Shown one piece after another: positions 12,039 through 51,005 of a stretch of 64,000 nucleotides of DNA. Position 1 is the first letter of the stretch. Each line of letters starts with the position of its first letter. The notes under the pieces were generated by a model. It did not search any database. It saw only the letters and a program-made list of their open reading frames with translations, and had not been told where the DNA came from. Origin of the DNA: Pontiellaceae bacterium B1224 (GTDB taxonomy: Bacteria; Verrucomicrobiota; Kiritimatiellia; Kiritimatiellales; Pontiellaceae); the NCBI GenBank assembly GCA_029432815.1, contig JAROBA010000015.1, forward strand, positions 1 to 64,000, written 5' to 3'. Made by a program: the position numbers and the translations under genes.

Positions 12039-12057
12039 ACCGGATCGGGACGATGAG

Positions 12058-12097
12058 AGGCGGGAAAGCAACGATATTGCATTCCCGCCTTTTTTTT
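12058..12097 (+). terminator. Rho-independent terminator after the first GH95 gene
   Basis: AGGCGGGAA (12058-12066) pairs with TTCCCGCCT (12082-12090). An inner GCAA/TTGC pair lies inside, and the stem is followed by a run of T to 12097. It ends the upstream unit 19 nt after the stop codon. Confidence 0.88.
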
Positions 12098-12333
12098 ATC
12101 CTGAACGATTAGATGTAGCATGTTAACCGATTGCATTGATCTGACTTCAAGAAGTGTGCTGACAAAAAAGTTAACTGGGTAGCTTTAAGTGGACGTGCAT
12201 TTTTTGATGTACCGGAGTATCAATTCTAGGTTGTCATAATGTGGGTTCCGGCCGGCAACGTGCGACAGTTGATTGAATGAAATGAATATAGGGCGGCTTA
12301 GCAGCGGTTCATGATAACAATCGGGGATCAGCG

Positions 12334-14712
12334 ATGAATTCTATTAGAAAGACAGTAGCAGGTTGCCTTATGGCAGGTGTGATATTTTCTCAAACGTTAC
12401 CGGTGCAGGCGGCATCCGGGGAGGATGCGATGAAACTTTGGTATGAACAGCCGGCGACGGAGTGGACAAAAGCATTGCCCATCGGCAATGGACGGCTCGG
12501 GGCCATGGTGTATGGCGGCGTTCAGCTGGAGCAACTGCAACTGAATGAGGAAACGCTCTGGAGCGGCGGGCCTCATTGCTACGATAATCCAGAGGCCTAT
12601 TCGCATCTTTCCAATGTTCGGAAACTGCTGAGGGCGGGCGAATATATTCAGGCCGAGGATGAGGCCCAGAAAATGATGGGTATCCCCGTCAAGCAGATGG
12701 CCTATCAGCCGCTGGGCGATATGCTCCTGATGTTCCCGCAGGGCGAAAAAACGAGTGGCTACCGCCGCGAGCTGGATTTGGCAACCGCAGTGAGTACCGT
12801 TTCATACAGCATCGGCTCCAGCTTCGGCGGGGTGAACTTCACGCGGAAAACCTTCGCGTCCAATCCCGACAACGCCATTGTGATGCGGTTGGAGAGCAGT
12901 CGAAAAGGGCAGCTCTCGTTCGACCTTTTGCTGACGAGTCCCCATGATGTTACGTCAACGGTGCTCGCGGGGGACAAGCTCTTGATGACCGGTCAGGTCG
13001 GACCGCGCAAAGAGCGGGGATTGATCGGACCGTGGGAAGGCGAGGGCATGAAATTCGCCGCGCAGGTCAAAGTTGTTGCTGAGGGCGGAACCGTGACCGA
13101 ACAAGGTGATAAAATTTCCGTGCGGGACGCCAACGCCGTGACGCTGGTTTATGTGGCCGCTACCAGTTTTGTCGACTGGCAGGACATCAGTGCAGATCCG
13201 ATTGAACGGGTGAATGCGCAACTGGCCGACGTGGAAGGGAAATCCTACGACGAACTCTACCAGCGCCATATCGAAGACTACGCACCGCTGTTTGATCGCG
13301 TGTCGCTCGACCTCGGAGGGGCTAATGCTGAACCGGACCTGCCGACTGACGAACGACTCAAGCTCGTCGCAGAGGGAGCGTCTGATCCGCTGCTGGCCGA
13401 ACAGATTTTCCAATATGGCCGCTATCTGATGATCGCGGGCTCACGCCCGGGCTCGCAGCCCCTGAATCTGCAGGGAATCTGGAATGGAACGGTTAACCCG
13501 CCATGGTGCAGCAAGTATACGATCAACATTAACATTCAGATGAACTACTGGGTGGCGGAAGTCTGCAACCTGAGTGAACTGCATGAACCGTTGCTCCGCA
13601 TGGTGGAAGAGTTGCAGGCTCCGGGAGCGTTGACCGCAAAGACGCATTACAACGCCGATGGATGGATGACGCATCATAACACCGATCTATGGCGCGGCAC
13701 GGCACCGGTCGATGGTGCGCAATGGGGCATGTGGCCCTCCGGCGGCGCGTGGTTGTGTCAGCACCTGTGGGAACATTATCTCTATACCGGCGATGTCGAA
13801 TATCTCCAGTGGGCCTATCCCATTATGAAAGGCTCTGCCGAGTTTTTCCTTAGCGACGGTGTGCTCATTGAAAATGAGAACGGATTCCTGATTACCTCAC
13901 CTTCCATCTCGCCGGAACACAGCCACGGCGGCACCACAAAAGATGGCCTCAGTATCGGGCGCGCTGGCACCTCGCTGTGTGAAGGCCCGACGATGGACCA
14001 GCAGATTCTTCGCGACCTGTTCGCCAACTGCATCCAGGCATCGGAAATTTTGAATATAGATGAGTCGTTCCGCGCTGACGTTGCTGAAACACGGGCCCAA
14101 CTTCAACCGATGATTATCGGTCGGCATGGCCAGTTGCAGGAGTGGATGGCGGATTGGGATAATCCCGACGATCCGCACTCCCATGTTTCGCATCTGTATG
14201 GGCTCTATCCGAGCGCTCAGATTAATCCAGCCGATACCCCGGAGCTGTTCGATGCCGCACGGACCTCGTTGATTCAGCGTGGTGCAGACGACGGCTGGCC
14301 CGGCGCGTGGCGTATTTCCCTGTGGGCGCGGGTGGGCGACGGTAATCGCGCGTTTGATATGCTCAATAACTACGTTGCGCACGGACTGACCGATAACCTG
14401 CTTAACGGCGGCCGCGTTTTCCAGATCGACGCGAACTTCGGTGCAACAGCCGGCATTGCCGAGATGCTGCTGCAGAGCCATAACGGTGTAATCAATCTGC
14501 TGCCGGCACTGCCGGGCGCCTGGCCAGACGGCTCTGTGAAAGGGCTCCGCGCCCGTGGCGGTTTTGAAGTCGATATGGCGTGGAAAGACGGTGTGCTGAC
14601 TGAAGCAACGATCCGTTCGCTGAATGGAAATCCGCTGGTAGTGCGTTATGGGGAAATCCTTGTTGAGAAGGAACTCTCCAAAGGGGACGTGTTTAACTGG
14701 GATGATAAATAA
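12334..14712 (+). CDS. GH95 alpha-L-fucosidase/alpha-L-galactosidase (second copy)
   Basis: The 792-residue paralogue of the preceding gene starts at ATG 12334 with a signal peptide ending near VQAASG. GH95 hallmarks are complete: [30 protein letters not shown]398 and N400 in [12 protein letters not shown]-type context, E603 in [11 protein letters not shown], and D699 in FQIDANFG. The two proteins keep the same catalytic spacing but are otherwise well diverged, so this is an old duplication or separate acquisition rather than a recent copy. The 295-nt gap before it holds the terminator and no other gene. The gene starts a tightly spaced series continuing with the two FAD oxidoreductases. Confidence 0.93.
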
Positions 14713-14745: not shown

Positions 14746-16119
14746 ATGAATAATCTGAGTCGGCGGCACATGATGCAGCAAGCCGGGCTTGGGCTCGGTT
14801 TGGCCGGTGCAACTACGATGCTTGGGCCATCCCGGGTGGATGCGGTCACTCCGTCGCAGGTCTATGCATCGCTTCCGGTGCTCGATGAAATCGATGTGCT
14901 GGTGTGCGGTGGCGGTGCAGCAGGGATCGGTGCCGGAATGGCAGCGGCGCAGCAGGGTGCGCGCACGTTGGTGATTGAAAACTGTACGTTTTTCGGGGGT
15001 GTTATTTCCTGGATGGTCGGCATGGAAATGAACCAGATGCGGCCGAAGGGAATGCCGCGTTCGGATACCATTGAGCGTTTGATCAAACAGATGGAATCCT
15101 ATGGGCCGCAGTCGATGCGGTTTTTAAACAAGCATGCCATTATTCCCAATGTCGAATATTTTAAAGTGGCGGTGCTGGACTGTTTTGATGCAGTGAACTG
15201 CGACTATCTGGTCGGGCTTCGCGCGGCGGATGCCATTGTGGAGGACAACGTCGTGAAAGGCGTAGTGGTGGCCACCCGTCAGGGCCTGATGCGGATCAAT
15301 GCCCAGTCGATCGTGGATTGCACGGGCGATGCCGATATTGCGCACTATGCCGGTGCGGAAACTTGGATTTATGATGAAGGTATGCTGGGGGCCATGACGC
15401 TGGGCTCAAACTACAATCACTGGCAGAAGCTCCGGAAAACGTTTGCCGGGGGGCGCGATAAATATCCACTGCTTCCGAAAGTGGACATCATCCGTCAGGT
15501 GGCCGGTTGCGATTTTTCATTCCTGAACAATGAAGGATCGCTTGTGCTGGGGAACCGGTGTGCTGTGGATTTGAAGCAGCGGACGGAGACCGAAACGCAG
15601 CTTTCCCGGCAACTGGTGCAGAATGTTCGCGCCATGCGTGAGTTCGGTGATACGGATGAACTGAAAAATGCCGAACTGGTGGGGGCGGCCCAACAGGTGG
15701 CAACCCGCGAATCCCGACGTCTGCATGGCGAATACACGCTCACCATGGCTGATATTGAATCGGGGACGACTCATCCCGATACGGTGGCCTGGCGCACGGG
15801 CGGCATCGATGTCGGCCCCGGCGGACTGTATAAGCCGAACGGGATGAATCTTTTTGATATTCCCTACCGATCGTTGCTGCCCATAAAAGTCGACGGGCTG
15901 ATTGTCGCCGGTCGCTGTATTTCTGCGGATCACATTCCTTCGCTCTCCGGCAAAAGTATCGGGAACCAGTTTGCCGCAGGGCAGGGCGCCGGTACGGCTG
16001 CGGCTGTCGCCGCAAAGCGTGGCGTGCTGCCGCGTAAAATTGATGTTGGGGAAGTCCAGGCGATTCTGGCGAAAGACAATGTGGATCTCTTCCCGGCCAA
16101 TCGGTCAACGCGGGCATAA
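14746..16119 (+). CDS. Tat-exported FAD-dependent oxidoreductase
   Basis: The 457-residue product has a twin-arginine-type leader (S-R-R-H-M-M then a Gly/Ala-rich hydrophobic stretch) consistent with export of a folded flavoprotein. A Rossmann FAD motif follows (IDVLVCGGGAAGIGAG, about 46-61), then the pattern of the FAD_oxidored family (PF12831 type), including VDCTGDADIAHYAG and a late GLIVAGRCISADH segment that closes the FAD site. The gene starts 33 nt after the GH95 gene and 11 nt before a paralogue. In sugar-degradation loci such enzymes are plausible oxidants of sugars or glycosides, but the substrate is not visible. Confidence 0.85.
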   Translation: MNNLSRRHMMQQAGLGLGLAGATTMLGPSRVDAVTPSQVYASLPVLDEIDVLVCGGGAAGIGAGMAAAQQGARTLVIENCTFFGGVISWMVGMEMNQMRPKGMPRSDTIERLIKQMESYGPQSMRFLNKHAIIPNVEYFKVAVLDCFDAVNCDYLVGLRAADAIVEDNVVKGVVVATRQGLMRINAQSIVDCTGDADIAHYAGAETWIYDEGMLGAMTLGSNYNHWQKLRKTFAGGRDKYPLLPKVDIIRQVAGCDFSFLNNEGSLVLGNRCAVDLKQRTETETQLSRQLVQNVRAMREFGDTDELKNAELVGAAQQVATRESRRLHGEYTLTMADIESGTTHPDTVAWRTGGIDVGPGGLYKPNGMNLFDIPYRSLLPIKVDGLIVAGRCISADHIPSLSGKSIGNQFAAGQGAGTAAAVAAKRGVLPRKIDVGEVQAILAKDNVDLFPANRSTRA

Positions 16120-16130
16120 GGAGCGAGGGT

Positions 16131-17384
16131 ATGAGAGAAAATAATAAGGTAAATCGACGCGCTCTTTTTTCCGGGGCTTCGGCTCAGTCAACCTATGCCG
16201 CGCTTCCGCTGCTGGAGACAGTCGATGTATTGATTGTGGGCGGCGGACCGGCGGGCATTGGCGCGGCGTTGGCCGCGAAACAACAAGGAGCCAGTTGCCT
16301 GCTGGTGGAGAGCTTTTCATTTTTCGGCGGTTCAGCGGTTTGGGGGATGGGGCGGCCGTTGGAGCAGATGCGGCCCGACGGGAAACCTCGCTCGGCTATT
16401 CATGAAATGGTTATCGAACAACTTATGGCACAGGGGGATCAGTCGGTCCGAATCGAAAATGACCGGTTGTATCCGCAGGTCCATTTTTTGAAGGCGGCAT
16501 TGGCCGATGCGCTGGATGCCGCGAACTGCCCATATCTGGTTCATGTTCAGGCCGTGGATGCCTGCGTGCAGGGCTCGCGCGTCAGCGGGGTGGTGCTTGC
16601 CACGAAGCAGGGATTGATGCGTGTGGATGCCAAGGTCGTCGTCGACTGCACCGGCGAGGCCAGTGTGGCCTGTTTTGCGGGAGCGAAAATGCAGGAGGCT
16701 CCGGACGCAGTGCCTATGAACCTGGGAGCGGCCTATGTTGATCTTGATTTAGCTGCCGTGAAAGAGGGCGATGTGGCGGAAGCCATCGATCAGGCGTGGG
16801 AAAAGAATCCTTTGCTTCCTGAGACGGTGACTGGACTGAAACAGGTTGCCAACGGGACGTTCGCTTATATGGAGCATGACGGTGTCAGCAACTTTGATTC
16901 GCTGGATCCAAAACAGCGTTCAGAAGCGGAGTGCCGGAGCCGTCGGCAGATCGTGCAGATGGAACGTGCAATGCGCGCCTCTTCTGCTGAAGCGTTGCAG
17001 GATATCGATATCTGCGAAGGCGCTCCCCAGCTCAGCGTTTCAATGCCCCGCCGTTTGAAAGGGTTGTATACGCTGACTCCAAAGGATGTCAGCGGGCATA
17101 CAATGTTTTCTGATACGGTCGCGGTGCGCTTTGATGTTTCGGGCCGTTGCGGAATTCCTTTCCGGACGATGCTTCCGGAGCTGGATGGACTCATCGTTGC
17201 TGGCGCCGGAATCAGTGCCGCAAACGATGCGGTATCAATGGCGGCGGGGAACTGTATCGCGACCGGCCATGCCGCTGGATTGGCCGCAGCGCTGTCGGCG
17301 AAAAAAGGAATCATGCCGCGCAAGCTGCATGTTGCCGAGGTTCAGGATGCCCTCCGTAAGGATGGGGTGGATTTGAACGTGTAG
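16131..17384 (+). CDS. FAD-dependent oxidoreductase (paralogue)
   Basis: The 417-residue product starts at ATG 16131 after GGAGCGAGGG. It shares the layout of the preceding protein: VDVLIVGGGPAGIGAALA near residues 32-49, VVDCTGEASVACFAG, and a late GLIVAGAGISAAND segment. The leader is short (N-R-R-A-L-F-S-G-A-S then A-Q-S-T-Y-A), with the double arginine but almost no hydrophobic core, so Tat export is doubtful unless it travels bound to its exported partner. The 11-nt spacing and common ancestry suggest a heteromeric or two-step oxidoreductase. The DUF1080 gene follows by 49 nt. Confidence 0.82.
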   Translation: MRENNKVNRRALFSGASAQSTYAALPLLETVDVLIVGGGPAGIGAALAAKQQGASCLLVESFSFFGGSAVWGMGRPLEQMRPDGKPRSAIHEMVIEQLMAQGDQSVRIENDRLYPQVHFLKAALADALDAANCPYLVHVQAVDACVQGSRVSGVVLATKQGLMRVDAKVVVDCTGEASVACFAGAKMQEAPDAVPMNLGAAYVDLDLAAVKEGDVAEAIDQAWEKNPLLPETVTGLKQVANGTFAYMEHDGVSNFDSLDPKQRSEAECRSRRQIVQMERAMRASSAEALQDIDICEGAPQLSVSMPRRLKGLYTLTPKDVSGHTMFSDTVAVRFDVSGRCGIPFRTMLPELDGLIVAGAGISAANDAVSMAAGNCIATGHAAGLAAALSAKKGIMPRKLHVAEVQDALRKDGVDLNV

Positions 17385-24856: not shown

Positions 24857-24893
24857 AAATAAGATCCGCCGTTTTCGGGAAATTCAGCAATAA

Positions 24894-24914
24894 ATACCTA
24901 TTTCAGGCGATACC
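24894..24914 (+). promoter_or_regulatory. Diverged copy of the ATACC-N11-ATACC element
   Basis: ATACC at 24894 and 24910 keeps the exact 16-nt offset of the three identical copies (30314, 50985, 57998), with core TATTTCAGGCG. It differs from them at three positions. TATTAT at 24934-24939, 19 nt downstream, could be a -10 box for the gene at 24970. Confidence 0.6.
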
Positions 24915-24969
24915 ATCCTGACACGGCGTGCGCTATTATGTTTGGTTAAAGTACTTTACAGGAGGACTG

Positions 24970-26160
24970 ATGGCTTCGGGGAAGAAGGAAAAAGGGTATA
25001 TGGCCAGGCATGCAAAATCGAGCGCGATGCTGGTGAGTCTGGGGCTTCATGCTGTATTGATTGTTGTGGCACTTTCATTTGTTGCGGTGACGGTTTACAC
25101 GAAAGAAGATCAGGTTTTTGAAGCCAAGCCCGTAAACAGGCCCAAGATGCAGCGTAAAAAACTGCAGGTGCCTGTAGAAATAAAAAAGAAAAAGACGCAG
25201 AAGCCTAAGCTTCGTAAACGGATCGTCGTAAAACAAACGCCTAAGGTGCCGGATATTAAAATGCCCGAAATCACCGGGGTGAAGGGAGGCTTGGCCGGAG
25301 GATATGGCGATGGCGGCGGTTCCGGTATCGGCTTTTCCATGCCGGAGATCGACTTTTTCGGAGCGAAGGGTAAAGGGGAAAAGGTGGTCTTTATTGTCCA
25401 TTTCGGGCCGGCGACGATCGGAAAAAACCCTTACCAACGCATGACCGGATACACCATCCGTAAACGTCTTGAGGATTTGATCAACGAGCTGCCGGAAGTT
25501 GCCTTGTTTAATGTCGCTGCATACTGGATGCACGACACGTGGGCGTTGAGCCCGAAAATGCTGCAGGCTACACCAGGAAACAAAAAGCAGGTGATGGACT
25601 GGATGGCACCGGTTAACCCGCTGGAAGGAAAATATCCGCACTGTTTTGTAAAGGCGAATAATAAGGCTAACTGGCTGAAACCAAGCTATCCAAATAAGGT
25701 AACCAAAGGACTGCCTTCCTGGGCGCCGAAATGGGTTTATTCGTATGAGGTGCCGGGGGGAATCAACAGCAAATATCTGGGCCAGGGCAAAAAGTTTGTG
25801 CATTGGAACCGGGGGGTGACCTGGGCGCTTCAGACGCAGAAACCGGATACAATCTTTGTTCTTACCACTAATTATATTGATGCCTGGGGTGGCGGGGGCA
25901 AAGGGAATCCCGAAAAGCTTTGTGATGCGTACCGGGAAATGATCCGTGAAGTTTACGGCCCGGATAAAAACCGTTGGCCGACGCTGAATGTGGTTGTGCT
26001 GGAACACGGAAATCTGAATCCGAATATCGTTCTCAATAACCAGTTCGGTCCGGTCATGAAAGCCTTCCGCGGTGATGGATCCACGATCACCGACATATCA
26101 AAGTATATGACCGACGAAGAGCGCACCATGTATAAAAATTACAGGAGTCAATACCAGTAG
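24970..26160 (+). CDS. TonB-like anchored protein with degenerate VWA-like domain
   Basis: The start is ATG 24970 with AGGAGG at 24960-24965; an upstream in-frame start at 24928 lacks a ribosome binding site. The 396-residue product has one N-terminal membrane segment (MLVSLGLHAVLIVVALSFVA, about 20-39), then a Lys/Pro-rich linker like that of TonB proteins and a Gly-rich stretch. The C-terminal domain opens with G-K-G-E-K-V-V-F-I-V-H-F-G-P and has the strand/helix pattern of a von Willebrand A domain. The metal site D-x-S-x-S is replaced by H144-F-G-P, so metal binding is unlikely. A periplasmic adaptor or sensor role is inference. It converges on the sensor kinase gene. Confidence 0.6.
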   Translation: MASGKKEKGYMARHAKSSAMLVSLGLHAVLIVVALSFVAVTVYTKEDQVFEAKPVNRPKMQRKKLQVPVEIKKKKTQKPKLRKRIVVKQTPKVPDIKMPEITGVKGGLAGGYGDGGGSGIGFSMPEIDFFGAKGKGEKVVFIVHFGPATIGKNPYQRMTGYTIRKRLEDLINELPEVALFNVAAYWMHDTWALSPKMLQATPGNKKQVMDWMAPVNPLEGKYPHCFVKANNKANWLKPSYPNKVTKGLPSWAPKWVYSYEVPGGINSKYLGQGKKFVHWNRGVTWALQTQKPDTIFVLTTNYIDAWGGGGKGNPEKLCDAYREMIREVYGPDKNRWPTLNVVVLEHGNLNPNIVLNNQFGPVMKAFRGDGSTITDISKYMTDEERTMYKNYRSQYQ

Positions 26161-26209: not shown

Positions 26210-28984
26210 CTAAGGGGTACTGTTCTGGTTTGTTTTTTCAATGGTAAGGGTGAACCCGGTTCCCGAGCCGGGGACAGATTCAATTTTCAAGTCGGCCTGC
26301 AGCCAGTCTGCGCGTTGCTTAAGGGTGCGGAGGGTCTGCGGCTTTTTCAGCGTGGCCTCATCAATCCCCGCGCCGTTGTCGCGAATGCGCATAATCAGCA
26401 TGTTGTTTTCCCGCCGGATTGAAATGTCGACATGGCTGCAGCCGGAATGCGTTTTTGCATTGTGGACGGCCTCTTTGTAGAAGAGCAGGACGCCTTTGCA
26501 GAACGAAGAATCGTTTTGCAGCAGCGCATTGGTGGAAGGATCCGCCTGAAAGGTGAACCCGGTTTTCCCGAGGAGGAGTCCGGCCAGCTCCTCCATATAG
26601 GCCAGAATATCCTGGGCGCGTCCGACTTCCGGGGCGGTGGTGCGGAGCACTTCCCGAAGGCCGAAGACGCTTTCGCGGGTGAGCCGGAAGATGGACTTGA
26701 GCCGTTTCTGCTCCGGCGCGGTGGTGATTTCCTCCTGCAGTTTTTCCACATGCAGGATGATGGCGCCTAGGTTGCTGCCGACGTCGTCATGCAGATCGCT
26801 GGCGATGCGTACCCGGGCTTGCCGCAGCTCCCGGTGCATCCGGATGCGGTTGCGTACCGTGAAATATATGGCGCTTCCAACCGCCACGATGAGCAGGGTG
26901 AGGCTGCCGTAGATGATTGTCTTTCCGATCTCCAGCAGTGTTTTTTTCTGGGCGTTGCGGAGGATCAGCTGCTCCTCCATCAGCTGTTGGCGCTCGGTGA
27001 GCTTTTCAATCCAGGTCCGCAGCGGCAGAACCTGTCCGGAATGCGTCAGCCCGTCGTTTGCGGAAACCAGCATCTGACTGAGTTTGTTCTCCTGCGTTTC
27101 ATTGGTCGAGGTCCGGAGCTTTTTCCCCATAAACGTTTCTTCAAAGACCGAGGCGCGGGCCGCTTCCTCGCCCTTATACAATGCCGTGATTTCGCTGAAG
27201 GCAATGGCCGGCATGGCTTTCGGAATGGGTTGCGATGCCTCGTAGACGATCAGCCGCACCGACTGCGCCGGGGTTTCGGGAAAATAGGAAAAATGGGGAT
27301 TCAGGCCCGGTTTGCGCATCGGAAAATATTTATAGGTGTCGTCGCTCTGCATAACGCGGCCTTGGGCGTCGAGCAGTTCGATGGAGAAGCGCACGGGAAA
27401 ACTCTGTCCGTAGGAGTGTTCGACCGCCGGATCAACCCGTACCGCATCGATGGGAATTTCCTGCGGATAGATGCAGGTGAGGATGTAGGACCCGGGGATT
27501 ACTTTATTGCCGAATCCTATTTTTTTAACAAACGTGTGGGTTTTTGAATGACTGTTCAGTTCCGGCAGCCCCAACGGGGTTTGGGCATCGACGAGAAATT
27601 CTCTTGCCAGCACATGATGGCCCTCCCGGCTGCCGCCACCCTTGCATTCCGCCCGGGGCGCCACGTTATCAGAACCGGCGAAGATGCAGATTTCCGCGAA
27701 CCCGGCCGCATGCCATTTTTCATAGGGGTGCTGCGGCAGGTCCGTGCAGCGCAGAGTCAGCCTGCGGGTGACCACCGGTTTGAATTCAATCAGCTTCGGG
27801 TGTGACTGGGCGATGAAGGGGCGGTCGGTGCTCTGGCCGATGACTTTGACCTGATTATCGACGATTGCGCTGATGGTGATGGAGCCCGGCCAATAGAGAT
27901 TTTCAGCGTAGATTTCATCCATGTAGAGTCGGAGGGGAAACAGGGCAACTGCATCGATTTCAACGGGCTCGTCCCAGATGAATGTCAAAGAGACCTCATC
28001 GGAGGAGGAGTCGAACTCGTGGGAAAGATAACCGCCGGTGCCGGTCGGTTCCCGCAGGTAGGGCTGGGGCAGGGCTTTAAGCTGCTCTTCAATCGCCAGA
28101 AGCCGGGCTTCGTTTTTCCGGTATTCTTTGAGAAACAGGCGGGCAATTTTTTCTTCGAGCGTGATTGTTGGTGTGGAAGCCGCCTGCGTGTCGGACCATG
28201 AAGGTACATGCTGTGAAGGTGTGATGGGTGTAACGCGTCCTCCGGCACCCGGGACGTCGAACGTTATGCCGGTGAGGCTGGCACCCTGAGTTGCCAGGCG
28301 CTGTGCTCCTGAAATGGAGAAGGTGGCGTTGGTTGCGCCGTTCAGGCCGATGTCGAAAAAGACAAAATTAGCAAAACCGTTTTTATTGTTTTCCAAACCG
28401 GTCACGGTCGCGGTTTCTGTGCCGGAGCTCAGGGTATAACCGGTCGGATCCCACCGGCCGTCCGCCTGATTCTGCGTTCCGCCCACCAGGCCCACTCGAA
28501 ATTGCTGCGGGGCTTCCGGCGAAACCGTGAATGTGAGAATCTCGCGCAACGCACCGGTTCCTCCGCTGGTCGTTACGGCGCTTCCCACAGTACTGCGGTC
28601 GCGGACCGCCGCGCTGACGGCGACCGTGGGATCATCCATAGGCCCCTGAGCGTGAACCGCCTGGGCCACACTCGAAAAATCGGCTCCGGCGGAAAAGGTG
28701 GCCCAGGGCAGGCCGGCCACATGCAGGGAAAAGGGCTGTTGGTTTTTCTCTCCATCCCCGCTGCCGAACATGAGCAGGCCGGCAGTTCCGTAGACATGAT
28801 CTCCATCAATATCGAAGGTCTTTTTTACGCCGGTCGAACGGTACGCCGTTACTTCGTTTGTTGCGTTTCCCAGAATGTCATAGCCGGTTCCGTCCCCGAC
28901 CACCGAAATTTGGATGCCGGCGTAAGCAGTACAGCTTATGAGCCCCGCGCTGATCATGGCACAATGGATTGTATGGATTCTCAT
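26210..28984 (-). CDS. Sensor histidine kinase with GYD-family extracytoplasmic domain
   Basis: The 924-residue product is preceded by GAGG and has a signal peptide (about 1-22). Residues 23-250 form the GYD domain, with SVVGDGTGYDILG, AYRSTGVKKTFDIDG, YGTAGLLMFG and DGRWDPTG; it is also found in secreted enzymes downstream. Two discoidin-like (F5/8-type) regions (about 310-600) follow. Then come a coiled-coil-like stretch, a membrane span (690-710), a HisKA_3 dimerisation box with phosphoacceptor H732 (ASDLHDDVGSNLG), and a C-terminal ATPase domain with motifs EAVHNAKTHS, RIRDNGAGID and GSGTGF. It is a NarL-partner kinase sensing outside the cytoplasm. It follows the response regulator by 48 nt in the same direction. 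Confidence 0.9.
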   Translation of the reverse strand: MRIHTIHCAMISAGLISCTAYAGIQISVVGDGTGYDILGNATNEVTAYRSTGVKKTFDIDGDHVYGTAGLLMFGSGDGEKNQQPFSLHVAGLPWATFSAGADFSSVAQAVHAQGPMDDPTVAVSAAVRDRSTVGSAVTTSGGTGALREILTFTVSPEAPQQFRVGLVGGTQNQADGRWDPTGYTLSSGTETATVTGLENNKNGFANFVFFDIGLNGATNATFSISGAQRLATQGASLTGITFDVPGAGGRVTPITPSQHVPSWSDTQAASTPTITLEEKIARLFLKEYRKNEARLLAIEEQLKALPQPYLREPTGTGGYLSHEFDSSSDEVSLTFIWDEPVEIDAVALFPLRLYMDEIYAENLYWPGSITISAIVDNQVKVIGQSTDRPFIAQSHPKLIEFKPVVTRRLTLRCTDLPQHPYEKWHAAGFAEICIFAGSDNVAPRAECKGGGSREGHHVLAREFLVDAQTPLGLPELNSHSKTHTFVKKIGFGNKVIPGSYILTCIYPQEIPIDAVRVDPAVEHSYGQSFPVRFSIELLDAQGRVMQSDDTYKYFPMRKPGLNPHFSYFPETPAQSVRLIVYEASQPIPKAMPAIAFSEITALYKGEEAARASVFEETFMGKKLRTSTNETQENKLSQMLVSANDGLTHSGQVLPLRTWIEKLTERQQLMEEQLILRNAQKKTLLEIGKTIIYGSLTLLIVAVGSAIYFTVRNRIRMHRELRQARVRIASDLHDDVGSNLGAIILHVEKLQEEITTAPEQKRLKSIFRLTRESVFGLREVLRTTAPEVGRAQDILAYMEELAGLLLGKTGFTFQADPSTNALLQNDSSFCKGVLLFYKEAVHNAKTHSGCSHVDISIRRENNMLIMRIRDNGAGIDEATLKKPQTLRTLKQRADWLQADLKIESVPGSGTGFTLTIEKTNQNSTP

Positions 28985-29032: not shown

Positions 29033-29692
29033 TCAGATAATGCCCATCGAGGCGGCCTTGCTGATGGCCCCCGACACATTGTGTACCTGAAGCTTCTGGT
29101 AGATCGTGCGGATATGGGTGTTGATGGTGTGTTTACTGAGATAAAGCAGGTCCGCCGTTTCCTGTCGGCTTAATCCGAGAGCCAGCTGTTTCAATACCTG
29201 GGTTTCCCGTTCGGTAAGTTCCGTCTCGGGGGACGCCGGTTTGAACGTTGAAAAGGTGTCGAACACCATTTTAGCAATTTCCGAACTGAGCGGCGCGATA
29301 CCGTGGCTGGCATCCTCAATCCCCTGTACAATCGCCTTCAGCCCATCCGATTTAATTAGATAACCTGATGCGCCGGCACCCAGAGCCTGGAAGACCCGGG
29401 CTTTATTGTCGAAAACGGTCAAAACCAGAATTTTAATTTCCGGGTTGGCTTTGCGGATCAGTGGAATTGCATCAAGCCCATCCATGCCCGGTAGACCTAG
29501 GTCCAGAATCAGTATTTCCGGAGGCACTGCTTCTCTCAGGAATTCAAAAGCATCTTCCGCATTCGAAAGAGTGGCGCAGATTTCAAAGCGTCCGGTCGAT
29601 TCAAGGGTTTCACAGAGCGCCTCGCGAAAGTCAGCATGATCTTCGATAAGGCAGATGCGGATAGGTACTGAGGGTATTGGGGATTCAGTCAT
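29033..29692 (-). CDS. NarL/FixJ-type response regulator
   Basis: The 219-residue product has a receiver domain (about 10-130) with acidic pocket E17-D18, phosphoacceptor D64 in LILDLGLPGMDG, and VLTVFD before the switch region. A LuxR-type helix-turn-helix follows (ELTERETQVLKQLALGLSRQ, then KHTINTHIRTIYQKLQVHN). The gene precedes the kinase gene in the same direction and almost certainly forms a two-component system with it. It is transcribed away from the + strand secreted-protein genes starting at 30439. Its DNA target is unknown; the ATACC element is one candidate. Confidence 0.93.
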   Translation of the reverse strand: MTESPIPSVPIRICLIEDHADFREALCETLESTGRFEICATLSNAEDAFEFLREAVPPEILILDLGLPGMDGLDAIPLIRKANPEIKILVLTVFDNKARVFQALGAGASGYLIKSDGLKAIVQGIEDASHGIAPLSSEIAKMVFDTFSTFKPASPETELTERETQVLKQLALGLSRQETADLLYLSKHTINTHIRTIYQKLQVHNVSGAISKAASMGII

Positions 29693-30044: not shown

Positions 30045-30313
30045 CGCGATCACGCCACTTAAAAAAACAACCGGAAAAAGCAGGTTTTCCACGACGGATA
30101 GTATCGAGTCATTCTGCAAAGTATGCAGTCAATCAATCTCCATACAGCTCAATGAAGTTGAAGTGCTTCAGTCTGAATCTTCCAGTGATTGGAAACAAAT
30201 CATTATTGCCGACTGGAAAACATGGCATCGTGACGCGGAGATGATTTTTACTCCTGAAGGCATCGCTGGGTAAAGCCAGTGTCATTTCGCAAAAAGGCAA
30301 AAAAATGCTCAAT

Positions 30314-30334
30314 ATACCCTTTTCCGGCGATACC
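30314..30334 (+). promoter_or_regulatory. ATACC-N11-ATACC element (copy 1)
   Basis: This 21-bp copy (ATACC at 30314 and 30330, core TTTTCCGGCG) is identical to those at 50985 and 57998. It lies 104 nt upstream of the start codon at 30439 and is followed by a pyrimidine-rich tract. Confidence 0.8.
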
Positions 30335-30438: not shown

Positions 30439-32688
30439 ATGAAACACGCATTTAAATTACTTGCCGGAATAGCTGCCGTTTTGGGAGTAGGCAGCGCTGT
30501 CGCTGATACCACTACTTTCCACACCGACTTCGATGAGGCAGACCTCGCATCAACCGGTTTGACGATTGATACACCAAGCACAGATGGGCCGGATAGCGGC
30601 ACGATTTCCTTAAACACGGCCAACCATCAGCTCGATTTTACCGCATACGGCGCCAACATGTGGACGTTGCGTGAAGGAGCACCCATCGCATGGGTCGCCG
30701 CGCCGACGGTGGAGGCTGGCGAGACCTGGTTTGTGGAAACTCAGGTAAACATGATCAATGGCGAAGCCGGTAATGCTGCTCAGTATAAGCAAGCAGGAAT
30801 CACATTCTATGACGGAACGCCCGGTGCAAATCCGGGGGATGAGGATGCCCCGTTTCTCGTACTGAACGACTGGAACAATTGGAACGTCAATGCCCAGGCA
30901 TTTACTATTGGCGGTGGCCAGAATTCCGGTTCTCCCGACCTTGGGGAAGCAACGGGTGCTTTCCTTCGTATAGAAATCACCGAAGGAGCGGTAACGAACA
31001 GCTATAACTATTTCTACAAAATCAACGAGGGCGATGCGTGGACCCGCTTGACCGGATGGGCTGAAAATCAAACAAGTGTCGCTTCTAATTCCGTTGTCGG
31101 GCTGTTCTTGAAATCTCATAACAACAACACCACTGGCGCGGCCCAGTTTGACTACCTATCGGTTGGCCTGGTTATCAATGAAGGAGCGACCGTTGATTTC
31201 GATCCGTTGATGCTTTCGATGGACCTGGATGCTCCCGGCCCGATCGCTAACGGAACCATCACGGCGTCATATTCTGCCGGGACGGTCACCTCGAACGATA
31301 TTGAAATTGTTTCTTTGACGGCGGATGCCGGATTCACTGCCGCTCCAGTCGCTGATCTGGGTACGGGAAATCCGACCGAGGATATCACGGTTACCTTTGA
31401 TAATTCCGGTATTGGCCTTACAGACGGGGAGAGCACCAATTCCACACTGGAGATTGTCTGGACGGAACTCGGTTCCGGTGTGAGTAATACTTCCAGCATT
31501 CCTGTGGATGTAACCTTTGTCAACAAACCCAACAGCATTAAACTGACTCCGGCCTCGCTTTCGATGACCTTGAAATATCCGGATACGAGCATCAACGGTA
31601 CGATGGTTGTTTCGTATACAGAGGGAACGATTCCCGCCGACATTGAAATTATTTCGATAACGTCGACGAATAGCGACTTCAGCGTTGATCAGGCCAGCTT
31701 TACCCTGAGTACGAATAGTACCAGCGAAGATGTGATGGTTACGTATGTTAATTCAGGCGCGCTGATGAACAATGGGGATACTGCGAATTCCACGGCGGTA
31801 GTCACATGGACTGTGGCGGGATCCGGTGTGACCAACACCGCCAATGTTACGCTGAGTGTTTCCTATTATAAACTCACCTATTCCACGACTGTGATTGCCG
31901 GGTTTGATTTTGATGCCAATACGGATGATGGGGTGCAGCGGTCTGCGATGCTTTTAGCAGAAAATGTAACTGCAAGCCTCTTTTCTGGTGGTGCTGGATT
32001 AAATAATCAAACGGTGGATGTTATTGGCGATAACAGCGGGGTAGATGCTTCCGGCGTTCCTTTCGGAACCTCGACCACTCCCGGTTATGAAGGAACCATG
32101 GGGATTAGTGTTGCCCAGGCAACCACGACAAACTTCGCCGATGCAGTCGCGGCGAACGATTACTATACGTTCACGGTCACACCCGACAGTGGGTTCGAAA
32201 TCAACCTGACGGACATTTCCTTCAAGGCATCGAAGAGCTCCGTAGACTCAGTCGATGAGTATGCGGTAACAGACAGCCAGGGTAATCAGATCGGCAGTTC
32301 AGCGACCATCACCACGATGGGGCAGGTAACGGCCTATGAGGGTGTGATCATCGATCTGTCGGCCCCCGAGTTTCAGAATATTACGGAACCGACTGAATTC
32401 CGCATCTATGCCTGGGGTCGGGGAACGACTTCCACAGGCGGCACGCTGGCGATGCTGGATAAAGTCGTCCTGAAAGGCACGGTGGGGTCCGGTGCCGTCC
32501 CGTCATTCAGCGCGACCGTTTCCGACGGCTCGCTCATCATGTCATGGGAAACCAGCGCTCCTTTCAATGTATTGACTAACGTCGATCTCGTGCACGGGGA
32601 ATGGGGCGTCTCGCAGTCGAATGTAACTTCGCCGGTTACCAATGCCGTCGGCAACGCGCCCCAGGTGTTTTACACGTTGGGCAAATAA
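30439..32688 (+). CDS. Secreted modular ConA/LamG-like protein
   Basis: The 749-residue product has a signal peptide (about 1-22). Residues 23-247 are a ConA/LamG-like beta-sandwich (TTFHTDFDEADL, APIAWVAAPTV, FLVLNDWNNWN, FDYLSVG), shared with the genes at 32760 and 58202. Two Ig-like repeats follow (about 248-361 and 362-475), with LSMDLDAPGPIANGTITASY and LSMTLKYPDTSINGTMVVSY as matching starts. Residues about 485-683 are a third module (AGFDFDANT, GDNSGVDASG, VDEYAVTD, FRIYAWGRG), also in the cytochrome protein at 51140. A C-terminal module ends VFYTLGK. No catalytic motif is visible; a structural or carbohydrate-binding surface protein is likely. It is preceded by an exact ATACC element. 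Confidence 0.8.
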   Translation: MKHAFKLLAGIAAVLGVGSAVADTTTFHTDFDEADLASTGLTIDTPSTDGPDSGTISLNTANHQLDFTAYGANMWTLREGAPIAWVAAPTVEAGETWFVETQVNMINGEAGNAAQYKQAGITFYDGTPGANPGDEDAPFLVLNDWNNWNVNAQAFTIGGGQNSGSPDLGEATGAFLRIEITEGAVTNSYNYFYKINEGDAWTRLTGWAENQTSVASNSVVGLFLKSHNNNTTGAAQFDYLSVGLVINEGATVDFDPLMLSMDLDAPGPIANGTITASYSAGTVTSNDIEIVSLTADAGFTAAPVADLGTGNPTEDITVTFDNSGIGLTDGESTNSTLEIVWTELGSGVSNTSSIPVDVTFVNKPNSIKLTPASLSMTLKYPDTSINGTMVVSYTEGTIPADIEIISITSTNSDFSVDQASFTLSTNSTSEDVMVTYVNSGALMNNGDTANSTAVVTWTVAGSGVTNTANVTLSVSYYKLTYSTTVIAGFDFDANTDDGVQRSAMLLAENVTASLFSGGAGLNNQTVDVIGDNSGVDASGVPFGTSTTPGYEGTMGISVAQATTTNFADAVAANDYYTFTVTPDSGFEINLTDISFKASKSSVDSVDEYAVTDSQGNQIGSSATITTMGQVTAYEGVIIDLSAPEFQNITEPTEFRIYAWGRGTTSTGGTLAMLDKVVLKGTVGSGAVPSFSATVSDGSLIMSWETSAPFNVLTNVDLVHGEWGVSQSNVTSPVTNAVGNAPQVFYTLGK

Positions 32689-32713
32689 ACGTCCGGGCGC
32701 TGATAATGAATTA

Positions 32714-32736
32714 GGGGATGCCATCGGGGCATCCCC
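32714..32736 (+). terminator. Intercistronic hairpin without T-run
   Basis: GGGGATGCC (32714-32722) pairs with GGCATCCCC (32728-32736). No T-tract follows, so it is more likely an RNA-stability or attenuation hairpin between two secreted-protein genes than a full terminator. Confidence 0.45.
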
Positions 32737-32759
32737 CAAATAAAACAAAGGAGATACAG

Positions 32760-33575
32760 ATGATAAAAAACATATCGAAATCAGTGCTTGGCTTAATTGC
32801 CATTCTCGCGGCAAGCGGGGTGAGCGCTGAAACCATCACGTTTCACTCCGATTTCGACGAGGCAGATCTCGGATCGACCGGTTTGAATATAGACACGCCT
32901 AGCACCAGTGGGGCTGCCAGTGGTACGGTGAGCTTAAACACGGGGAACCAGCAACTCGATTTAACCGCAAACGCAGCGAATATGTGGACAACGCGTGAAG
33001 GAGCGCCCATCGCATGGGTTGCAGCACCGACGGTATCGGTTGGCGAAACCTGGTTTGTGGAAACCCAAGTGTTTATGATAGATAGCGAAGCAGGCGATCA
33101 GTCTGGTTACGATCAGGGAGGAATCACATTCTATGACGGAATCGCCGGCTCAAATCCTGGTAGCAATGCCGCTCCATTCCTTGTTCTGAACGACTGGAAC
33201 AATTGGAACATCAATGCTCAGGATTTCACGATTGGCGGTAGTGGCAATAATTCCGTTTCTCCCAATCTAGGGACAGCTACCGGCGTTTTCCTGCGCACAG
33301 AAATCACCGAAGGAGGAGCAACCGATACCTATAATAGTTTCTATAAGGTCAATGAAGGCGACGAATGGATTCAGTTGACGGGATGGGCTGAAAATCACAC
33401 GAGTGATGCCCCTAATTCCGCTGTTGGTCTGTTCGTGAAGTCGCATGGCAATAACCCGGATGGCGCTGCCCAGTTTGACTACCTGTCGGTTGGGGTTGTT
33501 CCTGAGCCTGCCACGTTTGGATTGTTTGCAATATGTGGCGGAGGGATTTTGTTTGCCCGCCGTCGGTTCATATAA
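32760..33575 (+). CDS. PEP-CTERM protein with ConA/LamG-like domain
   Basis: ATG 32760 is preceded by GGAG; an upstream in-frame start at 32718 would begin in the hairpin region. The 271-residue product has a signal peptide ending GVSA before ETITFHSDFDEADL, and one domain (about 22-245) closely related to the N-terminal part of the preceding gene. The C-terminus V-P-E-P-A-T-F-G-L-F then a short hydrophobic segment and A-R-R-R-F-I is a textbook PEP-CTERM signal, processed by an exosortase that is not in this window. It is probably a surface or matrix protein. A strong terminator follows. Confidence 0.9.
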   Translation: MIKNISKSVLGLIAILAASGVSAETITFHSDFDEADLGSTGLNIDTPSTSGAASGTVSLNTGNQQLDLTANAANMWTTREGAPIAWVAAPTVSVGETWFVETQVFMIDSEAGDQSGYDQGGITFYDGIAGSNPGSNAAPFLVLNDWNNWNINAQDFTIGGSGNNSVSPNLGTATGVFLRTEITEGGATDTYNSFYKVNEGDEWIQLTGWAENHTSDAPNSAVGLFVKSHGNNPDGAAQFDYLSVGVVPEPATFGLFAICGGGILFARRRFI

Positions 33576-33725: not shown

Positions 33726-34586
33726 ATGAAATCAAAGGGAATCCTAAGCCTGTTATTCAGTTTCGGACTTTTGATCTGCACAGCGAATGCAGGAATTCAG
33801 ATATCAGTCGTCGGCGATGGGGCCGGCTACGACATCCTGGGAACCGGGGCGGAGACTCACGAGTCTACGGCGTATCGCTCGACAGGGATACCGAAGAATT
33901 TTGACACTGATAATGATAATATTTACGGAAGTGCCGGTCTTTTTATGTTTGGTGACGGTGGGGCGGAGATTAACAAGCAACCCTTTTCTATGCATACAAA
34001 AGTAGGTGCATCCTGGGCATCGTTTTTCCCCGCGGATGATTTGAGGGGTGTTGCCCAGAGTTCTCTTCAGGGACCGATGGATGATCCTGCTCCCGCGATC
34101 AATGCTGTTGTCAGGGACTGGGGGTCTGTGGGAACTGCGGTAACAACATTCGGTGATTGTATTGGTGCATGGCGTAAAATTCTGACATTCAAGGTTTCGA
34201 GTGATGCGCCCCGTAAATTTCGTATTGGTTTGGTATCCGGAACCCAGAATCAGGAAGACGGTCGTTGGGATCCTGCGGGATTGCGCATTACGGCTGATGG
34301 TGGAAAAACGTATGCTACGGTGACGAAGTTGGAAAATAACGGGAACGGTAATCCCAACTGGGTCTTTTTTGATGTGGATCTGAACGGAGCAACCTCCGGC
34401 ACCTTTACTATTGAAGGGGCTCAACGCTATGACATGAAGGAAATGGGAAAAATTAACAGTTATTATACGACCGGTGTCAGCCTGACCGGAGTCACATTTG
34501 ATCCACTTGGAGAAGCCCGTTCTTTAGGACTGATCACGGCCTTGGTCTGGCCGGGTATTCCGAATATAGATGCGGGTCGGGGATAA
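33726..34586 (+). CDS. Standalone GYD-domain secreted protein with decayed PEP-CTERM
   Basis: The 286-residue product has a signal peptide (about 1-22) and one GYD domain (23-270), with ISVVGDGAGYDILG, AYRSTGIPKNFDTD, YGSAGLFMFG, DGRWDPAGL and GVSLTGVTFDP. Of all copies here it appears closest to the sensor kinase ectodomain (compare GIQISVVGDG-GYDILG, SAGLFMFG/TAGLLMFG and QGPMDDP in both). The C-terminus G-E-A-R-S-L-G-L-I-T-A-L then P-G-I-P-N-I-D-A-G-R-G lines up with a PEP-CTERM signal (P-E-P-A-T-L-G-L-I, then R-R-R-F) but has lost the PEP and the basic cluster, so sorting is probably lost. It may be secreted freely and so compete with or present ligand to the kinase; that is inference. 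Confidence 0.82.
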   Translation: MKSKGILSLLFSFGLLICTANAGIQISVVGDGAGYDILGTGAETHESTAYRSTGIPKNFDTDNDNIYGSAGLFMFGDGGAEINKQPFSMHTKVGASWASFFPADDLRGVAQSSLQGPMDDPAPAINAVVRDWGSVGTAVTTFGDCIGAWRKILTFKVSSDAPRKFRIGLVSGTQNQEDGRWDPAGLRITADGGKTYATVTKLENNGNGNPNWVFFDVDLNGATSGTFTIEGAQRYDMKEMGKINSYYTTGVSLTGVTFDPLGEARSLGLITALVWPGIPNIDAGRG

Positions 34587-34668: not shown

Positions 34669-37600
34669 GTGAAAAACCTAAATCCAGTTCGGTGTGTTTT
34701 CTTTTGCGCGGGGTTCATAGCCTGTGTTGCGAATGGTGCCATCGATATCTCGGTGGTCGGAGACCTCTCCGGCTACGACGAAACCGGTGTGGTGTCGTAT
34801 CGTTCAACGAGTGTTTTTAAAGGCTTCGATGCCGACGGCAACAACGAATACGGCACCGAAGGAACGTTTTTTTTCGGAACCGGCGCCTCCGCCGCCAACA
34901 ACCAGTCCTTTTCGGTTCACTCGCAAAGCGGAGCCGACTGGGCAACCTTTGCGCAGGGCGCGCAGTTCGGCTCGGTCAGCGAGCAGACCAACTATGGCCC
35001 TTACGACAACCCGACGCTGAGCGGAAGCGATGTGGCCGACTGGACCATCTGCGGGATCGGCGTGGCGACGGGCGGCGGCGTCGGGCTGTGGGCCGAAGTG
35101 CTGACCTTTTCGATTGATTCATCCACACCGGAATCTTTTCGCGTCGGTGTGATGTCCGGCACGCAGGGAGATTCGATGGGAAAATGGGATCCGACGGGGC
35201 TGCGGCTTTCCGTTGACGGCGGAGCCGCCGCCGAAATCACCGGGCTGGAAAACACATCCGGCTCAACGCCCGGCTGGGTTTTCTTCGATGTGGATTTGAA
35301 CGGCGTAACCAGCGGCACCTTTTCGCTGGAGGGGCAGAACCGTTTGGCAGGACAGGGAACTGCCATCAGCGGCGTGACGTTTGATCTCTTTTTTGAGGGG
35401 AACTATGCGCCTGTGGCGGCTGCACAGAGTGTAACCACGCTTCCGGATACACCGGTGGAGTTCACGCTGACCGGCAGCGATCCGGAAGGCAGAAATCTGG
35501 CCTATACGGTAGTTTCTCAGCCCGTCCACGGTTCGCTGGGTGGAACGGCTCCGGATTTGACCTACGCGCCGAACTCCGGGTTTGAAGGATCGGACAGCTT
35601 TACGTTCACCGTCAGTGACGGGCTTGATGACAGCGCCCCGGCCACCGTGTCGATTCTGGTGACGAGCAACCGGCCGAATTTCATCATTATTTTTACAGAC
35701 GATCAGGGATACGGGGATCTGGGCTGCTTCGGCGGGACGAGTGTCAGCACGCCGCGCATCGACCGGATGGCGGAAGAGGGGGCCATGCTGACCAGTTTTT
35801 ATGTGGCGGGCAACGTGTGCACGCCGTCGCGCGCGGCCCTGATGACGGGCTGTTATCCGAAGCGAATCGGACTGGCCTCCCGCGTTCTCCTCGCCGAGGA
35901 TACCGTTGGGTTGAGTCTGGATGAAATCACGATTGCCGAGGTGCTGAAGGCGGCGGGCTATAAAACCGGAATGGTCGGTAAATGGCATTTGGGAGATCAG
36001 GCAAAATTCCTTCCTCCACGGCAGGGCTTTGATGAATATTCCGGCATTCCCTACAGCCACGATATTACGCCCTACCACGGTAATTCGAAATACGACTTCC
36101 CTCCACTGCCCTGGCTGGAAAGCGGGCAGGTGGTTGAGCTGGGGATCGATACGGATTATTTGACACAGCGGGTGACGTCACACGCCGTCGACTTTATTGA
36201 GAAAAACAAAGACGAGCCGTTTTTCCTGTATATTGCCCATCCGGCGCCGCATCGGCCCATCAGCGTTTCCGATGAGTACCTCGAAGGGGTTTCTCAGGAC
36301 ATTCTGGACGCTCTGGCCGCAGAAGAAGAGAATGATACGATTGACGCTGCCGCGCGCGATAATCTCTACTACCGGGCGATCAACGAGGTCGACTGGTCCG
36401 TCGGGGAAATTCTCGACACCCTGGAGAAGCAGGGCATCGACGCCAATACGCTGGTCATTTTCACTTCGGATAACGGTCCGTCCCCCGCGGCGCTTGGGTC
36501 GACCGGAGACCTGCGGGGCAGCAAAGGGGATACCTGGGAGGGCGGCATGCGCATGCCGACCGTCGTCCGCTGGCCGGGCGCGATTCCGGCCGGTATAGAG
36601 ATCGACGAAATCCTGACGACGATGGATCTGCTGCCCACCTTTGCCGGGCTGGCCGGCGCGGCGGTTCCGACCGACCGCGTGATCGACGGGCTGGATATCT
36701 GGCCGGTTCTCGCGGAAGGCGCGGCCACTCCGCACGACGCCTTTTTCTATTACGATGTCAACACCCTGCAGGCGGTGCGTTCCGGACCGTGGAAGCTGCG
36801 CCTGGGCAAGCTGTATGACCTGGAGGCGGATATCGGCGAGAGCACGGATGTGGCGGCTTCGCATCCCGCCATCGTGACGCAGCTCCAGGGGTATATGACC
36901 GACTTAGCCGCGGATATTGCGGCGAACAGCCGCCCGGCGGGATCGGTGGAGACCGCCTATGCGCTGACGCTGGTCTCCAGCACGGTCGGCCTGGTCGGCG
37001 ACGGCATCGGCTATGATGAAACCGGCGCGGCGGCGCAGGGCTTCCGCTCAACCCATGTGGTCAAAAGCTATGATGTCGGCGATGACGTCTACGGCAGGTC
37101 GGGAACTCTCTTTTTCGGCGATGGTACCACGCTCGGCGGCGGGCAGGCATTCAGCGTCAACATGAACGATCTTCCGGCATGGGTCACGAACTATGCGGCA
37201 GGTGCGGGCGTGGGGGCTTCGCCGGTCGGAGTCTTCGGCACCTATCCCAAAATCGACGACCCCAAACTGGAGCCGGAAAGCGATGTGGCCGATTTGGCCA
37301 ATACGGGACACGTGGCCGCAGAAAACAGCGGGGCGGGAACCTGGTCCGAAGTGCTCAAGTTTACGGTCGGCCCGTTCTCTCCCGGCTTCCGGCTGGGCAT
37401 CATGTCCGGGCACGAAGAAAGCGCCGATGGCGGATGGGATCCGACCGGGATTCGCGTGTCGGTGGCCGGCGGGGCGTCCGTAGCCGCCGAAGCAACGAAT
37501 CTCGAAAACCTGACGAATACCGCCGGCATGGTCTTTTTTGATGTGACCACCACCGACGGAACGACCGCCGATACCTTTGCCATCGAGGCGCAGCAGCGGC

Positions 37601-37869
37601 TGGTGGATCGGGGCGTCGTGATCGCCGGCATCACCTTCGATATCCTTCCGCCCGACGGCGTGGAAGTCGCATTTGACAGTACATTCAACGTGGAGTGGGA
37701 GAGTCGTGTCGGACTGAACTACACGCTTGAAGGAAGTTCATCCCTCACGAATGGCGAGTGGGTTGCCGTCAGTGCTGAAGAGATGGCCGCAACCCCGCCA
37801 ACCAACCGTTTTACCGGAACGGTAAATACGAACGGACACTATTTTTACAGGCTCCGGATTCACTACTAG
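34669..37869 (+). CDS. Secreted sulfatase flanked by two GYD domains
   Basis: The start is GTG 34669, with AAGGGAAC just upstream; the nearby ATG at 34667 is out of frame. The 1066-residue product has a signal peptide and GYD domain 1 (about 20-245), with SVVGDLSGYDETG and SYRSTSVFKGFDADG. A cadherin/Ig-like domain follows (about 246-335). The sulfatase domain (336-760) has C384 in N-V-C-T-P-S-R as formylglycine site, plus FTDDQGYGDLGC, KWHLGD and FTSDNGPSP. GYD domain 2 lies at about 762-1000 (LVGDGIGYDETGAA, GWDPTGIRVSV), followed by the common C-terminal module (LEGSSSLTNGEWV to YFYRLRIHY). It shows a GYD domain at both ends of a catalytic domain, suggesting the module tethers or targets the enzyme. 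The next gene is 16 nt away. Confidence 0.92.
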   Translation: MKNLNPVRCVFFCAGFIACVANGAIDISVVGDLSGYDETGVVSYRSTSVFKGFDADGNNEYGTEGTFFFGTGASAANNQSFSVHSQSGADWATFAQGAQFGSVSEQTNYGPYDNPTLSGSDVADWTICGIGVATGGGVGLWAEVLTFSIDSSTPESFRVGVMSGTQGDSMGKWDPTGLRLSVDGGAAAEITGLENTSGSTPGWVFFDVDLNGVTSGTFSLEGQNRLAGQGTAISGVTFDLFFEGNYAPVAAAQSVTTLPDTPVEFTLTGSDPEGRNLAYTVVSQPVHGSLGGTAPDLTYAPNSGFEGSDSFTFTVSDGLDDSAPATVSILVTSNRPNFIIIFTDDQGYGDLGCFGGTSVSTPRIDRMAEEGAMLTSFYVAGNVCTPSRAALMTGCYPKRIGLASRVLLAEDTVGLSLDEITIAEVLKAAGYKTGMVGKWHLGDQAKFLPPRQGFDEYSGIPYSHDITPYHGNSKYDFPPLPWLESGQVVELGIDTDYLTQRVTSHAVDFIEKNKDEPFFLYIAHPAPHRPISVSDEYLEGVSQDILDALAAEEENDTIDAAARDNLYYRAINEVDWSVGEILDTLEKQGIDANTLVIFTSDNGPSPAALGSTGDLRGSKGDTWEGGMRMPTVVRWPGAIPAGIEIDEILTTMDLLPTFAGLAGAAVPTDRVIDGLDIWPVLAEGAATPHDAFFYYDVNTLQAVRSGPWKLRLGKLYDLEADIGESTDVAASHPAIVTQLQGYMTDLAADIAANSRPAGSVETAYALTLVSSTVGLVGDGIGYDETGAAAQGFRSTHVVKSYDVGDDVYGRSGTLFFGDGTTLGGGQAFSVNMNDLPAWVTNYAAGAGVGASPVGVFGTYPKIDDPKLEPESDVADLANTGHVAAENSGAGTWSEVLKFTVGPFSPGFRLGIMSGHEESADGGWDPTGIRVSVAGGASVAAEATNLENLTNTAGMVFFDVTTTDGTTADTFAIEAQQRLVDRGVVIAGITFDILPPDGVEVAFDSTFNVEWESRVGLNYTLEGSSSLTNGEWVAVSAEEMAATPPTNRFTGTVNTNGHYFYRLRIHY

Positions 37870-50975: not shown

Positions 50976-50984
50976 ATTCTCATT

Positions 50985-51005
50985 ATACCCTTTTCCGGCG
51001 ATACC
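50985..51005 (+). promoter_or_regulatory. ATACC-N11-ATACC element (copy 2)
   Basis: Identical to copies at 30314 and 57998. It lies 10 nt after the terminator T-run and 134 nt before the start at 51140, as expected for a control site of the next unit. Confidence 0.8.

Follow-up and report, generated by a model that had tools for sequence, protein, structure and literature searches.

An exported domain shared by a sensor histidine kinase and secreted enzymes of its candidate regulon in a Pontiellaceae bacterium

To our knowledge, little is known about how bacteria of the PVC superphylum control which of their exceptionally numerous sulfatases and glycosidases are produced. Sensors that resemble the enzymes they control have been described in Clostridium thermocellum, where the outer CBM3, PA14 and GH10 modules of RsgI anti-sigma factors belong to the same families as those of the controlled secreted enzymes, and where the GH10 module of RsgI6 is 57% identical to Xyn10D (PMC4711584). 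In Pontiella agarivorans, PF07730/PF02518 kinases and regulators were reported near glycoside hydrolase and sulfatase genes (PMC10880615). Our literature search found no paper describing the domain (GYD), the operator or the sensor presented here, which were studied in a window of 64,000 nucleotides (the whole stretch analyzed, contig JAROBA010000015.1) from the 5.38 Mb genome of Pontiellaceae bacterium B1224 (hereafter G000).

Like RsgI, the sensor of this window is a membrane protein whose outer domain is common to enzymes of its own regulon, as delimited by a candidate operator. However, RsgI is an anti-sigma factor with a sigma-I partner and a C-terminal outer module, whereas the window protein is a histidine kinase with a response regulator, an N-terminal module and a second conserved ectodomain. 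By analogy, the best explanation is that the kinase would work like the RsgI sensors without being one of them. Its kinase and regulator domains are those of NarX/NarQ and UhpB, HisKA_3 kinases working with NarL-type regulators. It differs from these proteins and from the Pontiella paralogues by its large exported N-terminal part with GYD, and from the other orthologues of the genus, which have no GYD. In the hybrid two-component systems of Bacteroidetes, a single polypeptide contains the kinase, the receiver and an AraC-type HTH, whereas here two proteins are involved and the HTH is of the LuxR type.

The kinase gene (positions 26210-28984, minus strand) is a single uninterrupted frame of 924 codons. 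The protein presents a signal peptide assigned by eye (residues 1-22), then GYD (residues 23-243; 28256-28918), a linker, an ectodomain of about 400 residues starting at residue 276, one transmembrane helix predicted from hydropathy (residues 683-710 approximately; 26855-26938) and a Pfam-assigned catalytic core (residues 724-917; 26234-26815). HisKA_3 (residues 724-786; E = 4e-8, 34 bits) and HATPase_c (residues 837-917; E = 3e-7, 31.3 bits) both exceed their curated cut-offs, and the core contains H732, an N-box at 841 and a G-box at 869. The response regulator gene (29033-29692, minus strand) is located 48 bp upstream and encodes a receiver (Response_reg, E = 1e-20) and a LuxR-type HTH (GerE, E = 4e-14). 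Judged by these domains, the two proteins would constitute a HisKA_3/NarL-type two-component system with putative phosphotransfer between them.

Both genes are adjacent and conserved together in six genomes: the window genome, its congeners G003 (kinases 68-70% identical) and G020 (59-63%), the Verrucomicrobiota MAG JB025 (55%), and G401 and G197, from another family of the phylum. The kinases of G003, G020 and JB025 have no GYD and begin directly at the ectodomain. The portion common to all orthologues is the ectodomain with the start of the transmembrane helix (residues 276-692; 26909-28159, minus strand). A profile of this portion delimits a sharply bounded group, in which six genomes score about 550 bits or higher, whereas the next best match scores 145 bits. 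A search with the ectodomain gave no match among PDB sequences. That this portion, and not GYD, is the ancestral sensing part is the best explanation. The window genome also encodes some 19 paralogues of the kinase within the wider family. One of them, on contig C169, was read at full length and has no GYD; this second, paralogous two-component system adjoins a PEP-CTERM protein and a GYD-bearing protein (L010:4977-10901), as if such systems and surface proteins travelled together.

A search of the whole window genome with kinase residues 1-243 gave eight places, i.e., the kinase itself and seven others, five of which are in the window (E = 1e-79 to 7e-34). A lone GYD protein (33726-34586, GYD at 33789-34502) is the most similar, with 62% identity to the kinase domain (E = 1e-79). 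A sulfatase (34669-37869; Sulfatase, E = 3e-67) carries two copies, at 34729-35385 (48%, E = 6e-59) and 36976-37641 (42%, E = 7e-34). GYD is N-terminal in a tandem GH117 enzyme (42379-45786, GYD at 42442-43095; 48%, E = 1e-50) and in a cytochrome protein resembling hydrazine synthase beta/gamma (51140-54823, GYD at 51203-51865; 42%, E = 2e-44). The two remaining copies are located just beyond the window end (C66:65818; 45%, E = 2e-40) and on contig C169 (33%, E = 8e-20). All the window copies except that of the kinase are on the plus strand and end at most 25.8 kb from the kinase start. Thus, these data bear out the preliminary description, in which the domain had been reported to recur in a lone protein, twice in a sulfatase, in a GH117-like enzyme and in a cytochrome protein, on the opposite strand within 26 kb. 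Its GH117 label was also right, as the two tandem domains match the solved GH117 structures 3r4y (E = 5e-44) and 4ak5 (E = 1e-40). Among the shared motifs it listed, VGDGxGYD, YRST, KxFDxD, YGTAG and DGRWDPTG hold, and the closing motif reads GITFD in the kinase instead of GVTFD. We consider it practically certain that the kinase and the secreted proteins share this domain.

GYD matched no Pfam or NCBIfam model, including any named PEP-CTERM family of NCBIfam, and a 15-row profile found no relative among PDB sequences (best E = 1.4, a lectin). It was found in only 3 of the 29 genomes of the family. The idea that GYD kinases are common was rejected, as just three of the 51 domains collected sit on kinases, all in one orthologue group. 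Most of the lone GYD proteins of relatives end with a PEP-CTERM tail, the likeness to PEP-CTERM/exosortase systems (PMC1569441), and an exosortase is present in the genomes; the lone form is thus likely destined for surface sorting in these bacteria. By contrast, the GYD enzymes and GYD kinases have no such tail, and that of the window lone protein is decayed. Its C-terminus (34503-34586), without a PEP-CTERM match in Pfam or NCBIfam, resembles a decayed tail (DPLGEARSLGLITALVWPGIPNIDAGRG, compared with DTIPEPATLGLVAVFGGSVLFIRRRIML in G020). For the kinase, which has its own signal peptide and transmembrane helix, it is unlikely that GYD would serve for sorting alone. The present work delineates a protein domain covered by neither Pfam nor NCBIfam and found in kinases as well as in sulfatases, GH117 enzymes and PEP-CTERM surface proteins.

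AlphaFold models of two GYD copies are beta-sandwiches (pLDDT 78 and 81.5, pTM 0.81 and 0.85). CBM35 (e.g., 2w46, 2w3j) was the nearest solved fold for both, according to Foldseek (E = 6e-4 and 4e-4) and VIA-align (Z = 8.3 and 8.9). These Z values are near background: they approach the level of common arrangements, and according to the aligner a model that has no clear match typically reaches 7-8 at best. GYD differs from CBM35 by the lack of a sequence match and by about 40 extra N-terminal residues. The models thus support a sandwich of the carbohydrate-binding-module type, short of proof of sugar binding. Glycan recognition, as suggested in the preliminary description, is plausible, and we give even chances to the proposal that GYD may bind carbohydrate. 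A contribution of the domain to sensing by the kinase is somewhat more probable. As for the substrate, the sulfatases, GH117 and GH95 enzymes, and GH29 in G003, suggest a sulfated seaweed polysaccharide containing galactose or fucose. Such a substrate fits the published growth and gene content of Pontiella (PMC10880615, PMC7356697).

Comparison of the intergenic regions beside the two-component systems revealed an operator-like element. The sequence ATACCCTTTTCCGG has six exact copies in the window genome, five of them within 38 kb. Three of these copies are in the window, all on the plus strand and each ahead of a transcription unit: in the divergent region that separates the regulator from gene 30439 (30312-30333, matrix score 36.6), ahead of the unit of the GYD cytochrome protein (50983-51004) and ahead of gene 58202 (57996-58017). 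Operons were deduced from gene orientation and spacing, the gaps in the stretch 30439-50822 being 7-150 bp. A diverged element (24892-24913, plus strand, matrix score 25.9) precedes gene 24928. The corresponding region (24892-26160) encodes a 410-residue protein with a TonB-like N-terminus and no Pfam match; its G020 orthologue, 76% identical, has an exact element 64 bp before its start.

The palindromic pattern TACCCTTTTCNGGNNAT has eight exact copies in each of G000, G003 and G020, with an expectation of 0.03 from composition in G000, where 5 of the 8 lie within 38 kb of one another, beside the two-component system and in the same orientation. The 13 other congeners, all devoid of this system, have no copy, including three that carry many paralogous kinases (G021, G028 and G002). 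The reversed pattern, used as a control, was absent from the three positive genomes and gave two matches in the other 17. For 17 of the 24 copies, a long open frame with the orientation of the copy begins 45-245 bp beyond it, and the genes behind the copies include GYD proteins, GH117 enzymes, sulfatases, a GH29 fucosidase, GH97 and large surface proteins. Some G003 copies form a perfect inverted repeat, ATACCC-TTTTCA-GGGTAT, the shape that would be expected for a dimeric regulator. The window copies are followed 17-18 bp further on by TGATA, which we read as resembling a -10 box. A search for dyads yielded no more than a weak repeat, TTCCA-N5-TGGAA, which was present in 4 of 14 regions.

Outside the genus, exact TACCCTTTTCNGGNNAT was absent from the four genomes searched (JB025, G401, G197 and G558). 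In JB025, the matrix finds diverged copies, one of them between the kinase and its divergent neighbor (score 17.0, whereas shuffled sequences reached 2.9 at most). The related TACCTnATtCCAGTgATAG is found in G401 and G197 (none expected), in the region divergent from the regulator. It precedes a GH117 gene in G401, and in G197 it also precedes a lone GYD-PEP-CTERM gene and its neighbor. An element is therefore located beside the system in all six genomes that have it, and in none of the paralogue-rich congeners without it. We conclude that control of the GYD, GH117 and sulfatase units by this system is very probable. In this respect, the preliminary proposal that the sensor shares its domain with enzymes under its own control is well sustained for the window. 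It is not supported as a general rule, as three of the five other orthologues have no GYD although GYD genes are present in the same clusters. Since the regulon exists with GYD-less sensors, GYD is an accessory part that is not needed for the sensor to serve the regulon. These data give a defined sensor, DNA site and target set, conserved in outline across three families, and the natural sensors with and without GYD allow one to ask whether sharing a module with its own enzymes sharpens the substrate sensing of a kinase.

The two-component system could also be a bystander, the operator belonging to a different regulator. About 19 kinases of the wider family are available in the genome, and one operator copy (C129:59491) is located about 3 kb from another kinase gene. 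Also, no copy is oriented towards the kinase-regulator unit itself. However, the constant position of the element beside this system in the six genomes and its absence from the paralogue-rich congeners speak against such a view, as does the drift of the element, which follows the relationships of the system. We consequently regard the bystander view as improbable.

With control of the regulon by this system as the preferred reading, the origin of the kinase GYD has to be considered. A tree built from 51 GYD domains places the window kinase copy in a clade (support 100/100) with the lone protein, the GH117 copies of G003 and G020, and lone relatives. The kinase copies of G401 and G197, located at the same kinase position, are very divergent (YGTAG, an FR pair and the final FD are all that can still be readily recognized) and are placed far off on a long branch. 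Constraining the three kinase copies together cost 20 log-likelihood units (p-AU = 0.056), which is suggestive of separate origins, short of proof. In the tree of kinase cores, the window, G003, G020 and JB025 sequences form one group (100/100), and G401 and G197 form the other. The window kinase signal peptide resembles those of the G003 and G020 GH117 proteins, and the DNA similarity of the window genome to these two genomes ends at the end of the regulator gene. The placement of the domain among the lone and GH117 copies therefore indicates that the kinase GYD was probably captured locally, together with the signal peptide, rather than inherited. The simplest reading is that the kinase took up the 5' end of a GYD gene. 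An assembly artefact is not favored as an explanation of the fusion: the frame is open, each half fits where the junction was expected to lie, and two other genomes also encode GYD kinases.

Sequence comparisons indicate that GYD has been shuffled as a module, including exchanges between the enzymes. For example, between G000 and G003/G020 the GH117 orthologues share 79-80% identity outside GYD but 49-50% within it, whereas between G000 and JB025 the identity is 71% in both parts. For the cytochrome protein, the G003 and JB025 domains are 71% identical and the other pairs 39-50%. Gene 30439 has an N-terminal module that differs from GYD, whereas its G003 counterpart has GYD. We also observed that two more N-terminal modules, one starting with FHSDFDEADL and the other with IDFGG, recur in several cluster proteins (30439-33575, 58202-61278) and alternate with GYD among the orthologues of related genomes.

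Local capture has to be weighed against an ancestral fusion, in which GYD was original to the kinase, then lost in G003, G020 and JB025 and overwritten by gene conversion in the window genome. The common position of GYD in the G401 and G197 kinases fits this scenario, and the grouping of the three kinase copies was not quite rejected. It nevertheless requires several losses plus a replacement, and the window copy is firmly placed among the lone and GH117 copies. For these reasons, GYD as the ancestral sensing domain is not favored, and we consider such a fusion unlikely. A captured domain could also be a mere passenger: the 5' end of a gene for a secreted protein would have taken the place of the kinase N-terminus, the signal peptide alone being useful and GYD being tolerated without a sensing role. 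The three orthologues without GYD agree with this possibility, as does the free swapping of GYD among unrelated proteins, a behavior shared by a second module type. However, GYD kinases are also found in G401 and G197, where the domain is otherwise rare, and the window kinase has kept its frame and its conserved GYD residues intact, so that we hold the passenger hypothesis to be rather doubtful, if slightly less so than the ancestral fusion.

Contacts between GYD domains are another conceivable function, by which the GYD enzymes or the lone protein would dock on the kinase, reporting on or quenching its signal, in line with the preliminary suggestion that secreted GYD proteins may titrate the signal or deliver it to the kinase. 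Such contacts would suit a domain common to one regulon, as well as the fact that the closest copies to the kinase GYD are those of lone and GH117 proteins. But G401 has a GYD kinase and no other GYD was found in its genome, and GYD-less orthologues serve similar clusters, which leaves this idea with little probability. A broader proposal is that GYD would be a dedicated link between sensor and exported regulon, recruited twice independently by one kinase group. The kinase GYD and the surface GYD proteins would then recognize the same polymer or each other, and the cell would read the deployment of its enzymes on the substrate. We mention it as a tentative and on balance unlikely extension.

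The mechanism that we propose combines control of the regulon by the system with local capture of an accessory GYD, and as a whole we favor it by a small measure, from sequence comparisons. The kinase and its regulator would switch on an exported regulon for the degradation of sulfated polysaccharides, comprising sulfatases, GH117 enzymes and probably fucosidases. The core ectodomain (residues 276-692) would meet the signal, and the phosphorylated regulator would bind the palindrome ATACCC-N6-GGcgATA, an operator placed some 50-250 bp ahead of each unit. GYD would be an accessory, probably carbohydrate-binding, module acquired with its signal peptide from a secreted-protein gene of the regulon itself, and may hold the sensor on the polymer that is bound by the GYD enzymes and surface proteins, with a possible benefit of placement.

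Other features of the cluster deserve mention. A hydrazine-synthase-like pair (51140-57880) lies among the polysaccharide genes, composed of the beta/gamma-like GYD protein and of a second protein that contains the middle domain of hydrazine synthase alpha (PF18582, E = 2e-31; PDB 5c2v, E = 2e-12); this pair is conserved in G003, G020 and JB025. Two giant proteins, encoded at 1401-7583 and 45804-50822, are exported and combine a CotH kinase domain with several lamin-tail domains; one of them lies within the presumed GYD operon. Also, two neighboring genes of the GH95 family (9657-14712), both very strong matches (E = 1e-170), are followed by two neighboring genes (14746-17384) whose products resemble FAD-dependent oxidoreductases in sequence.
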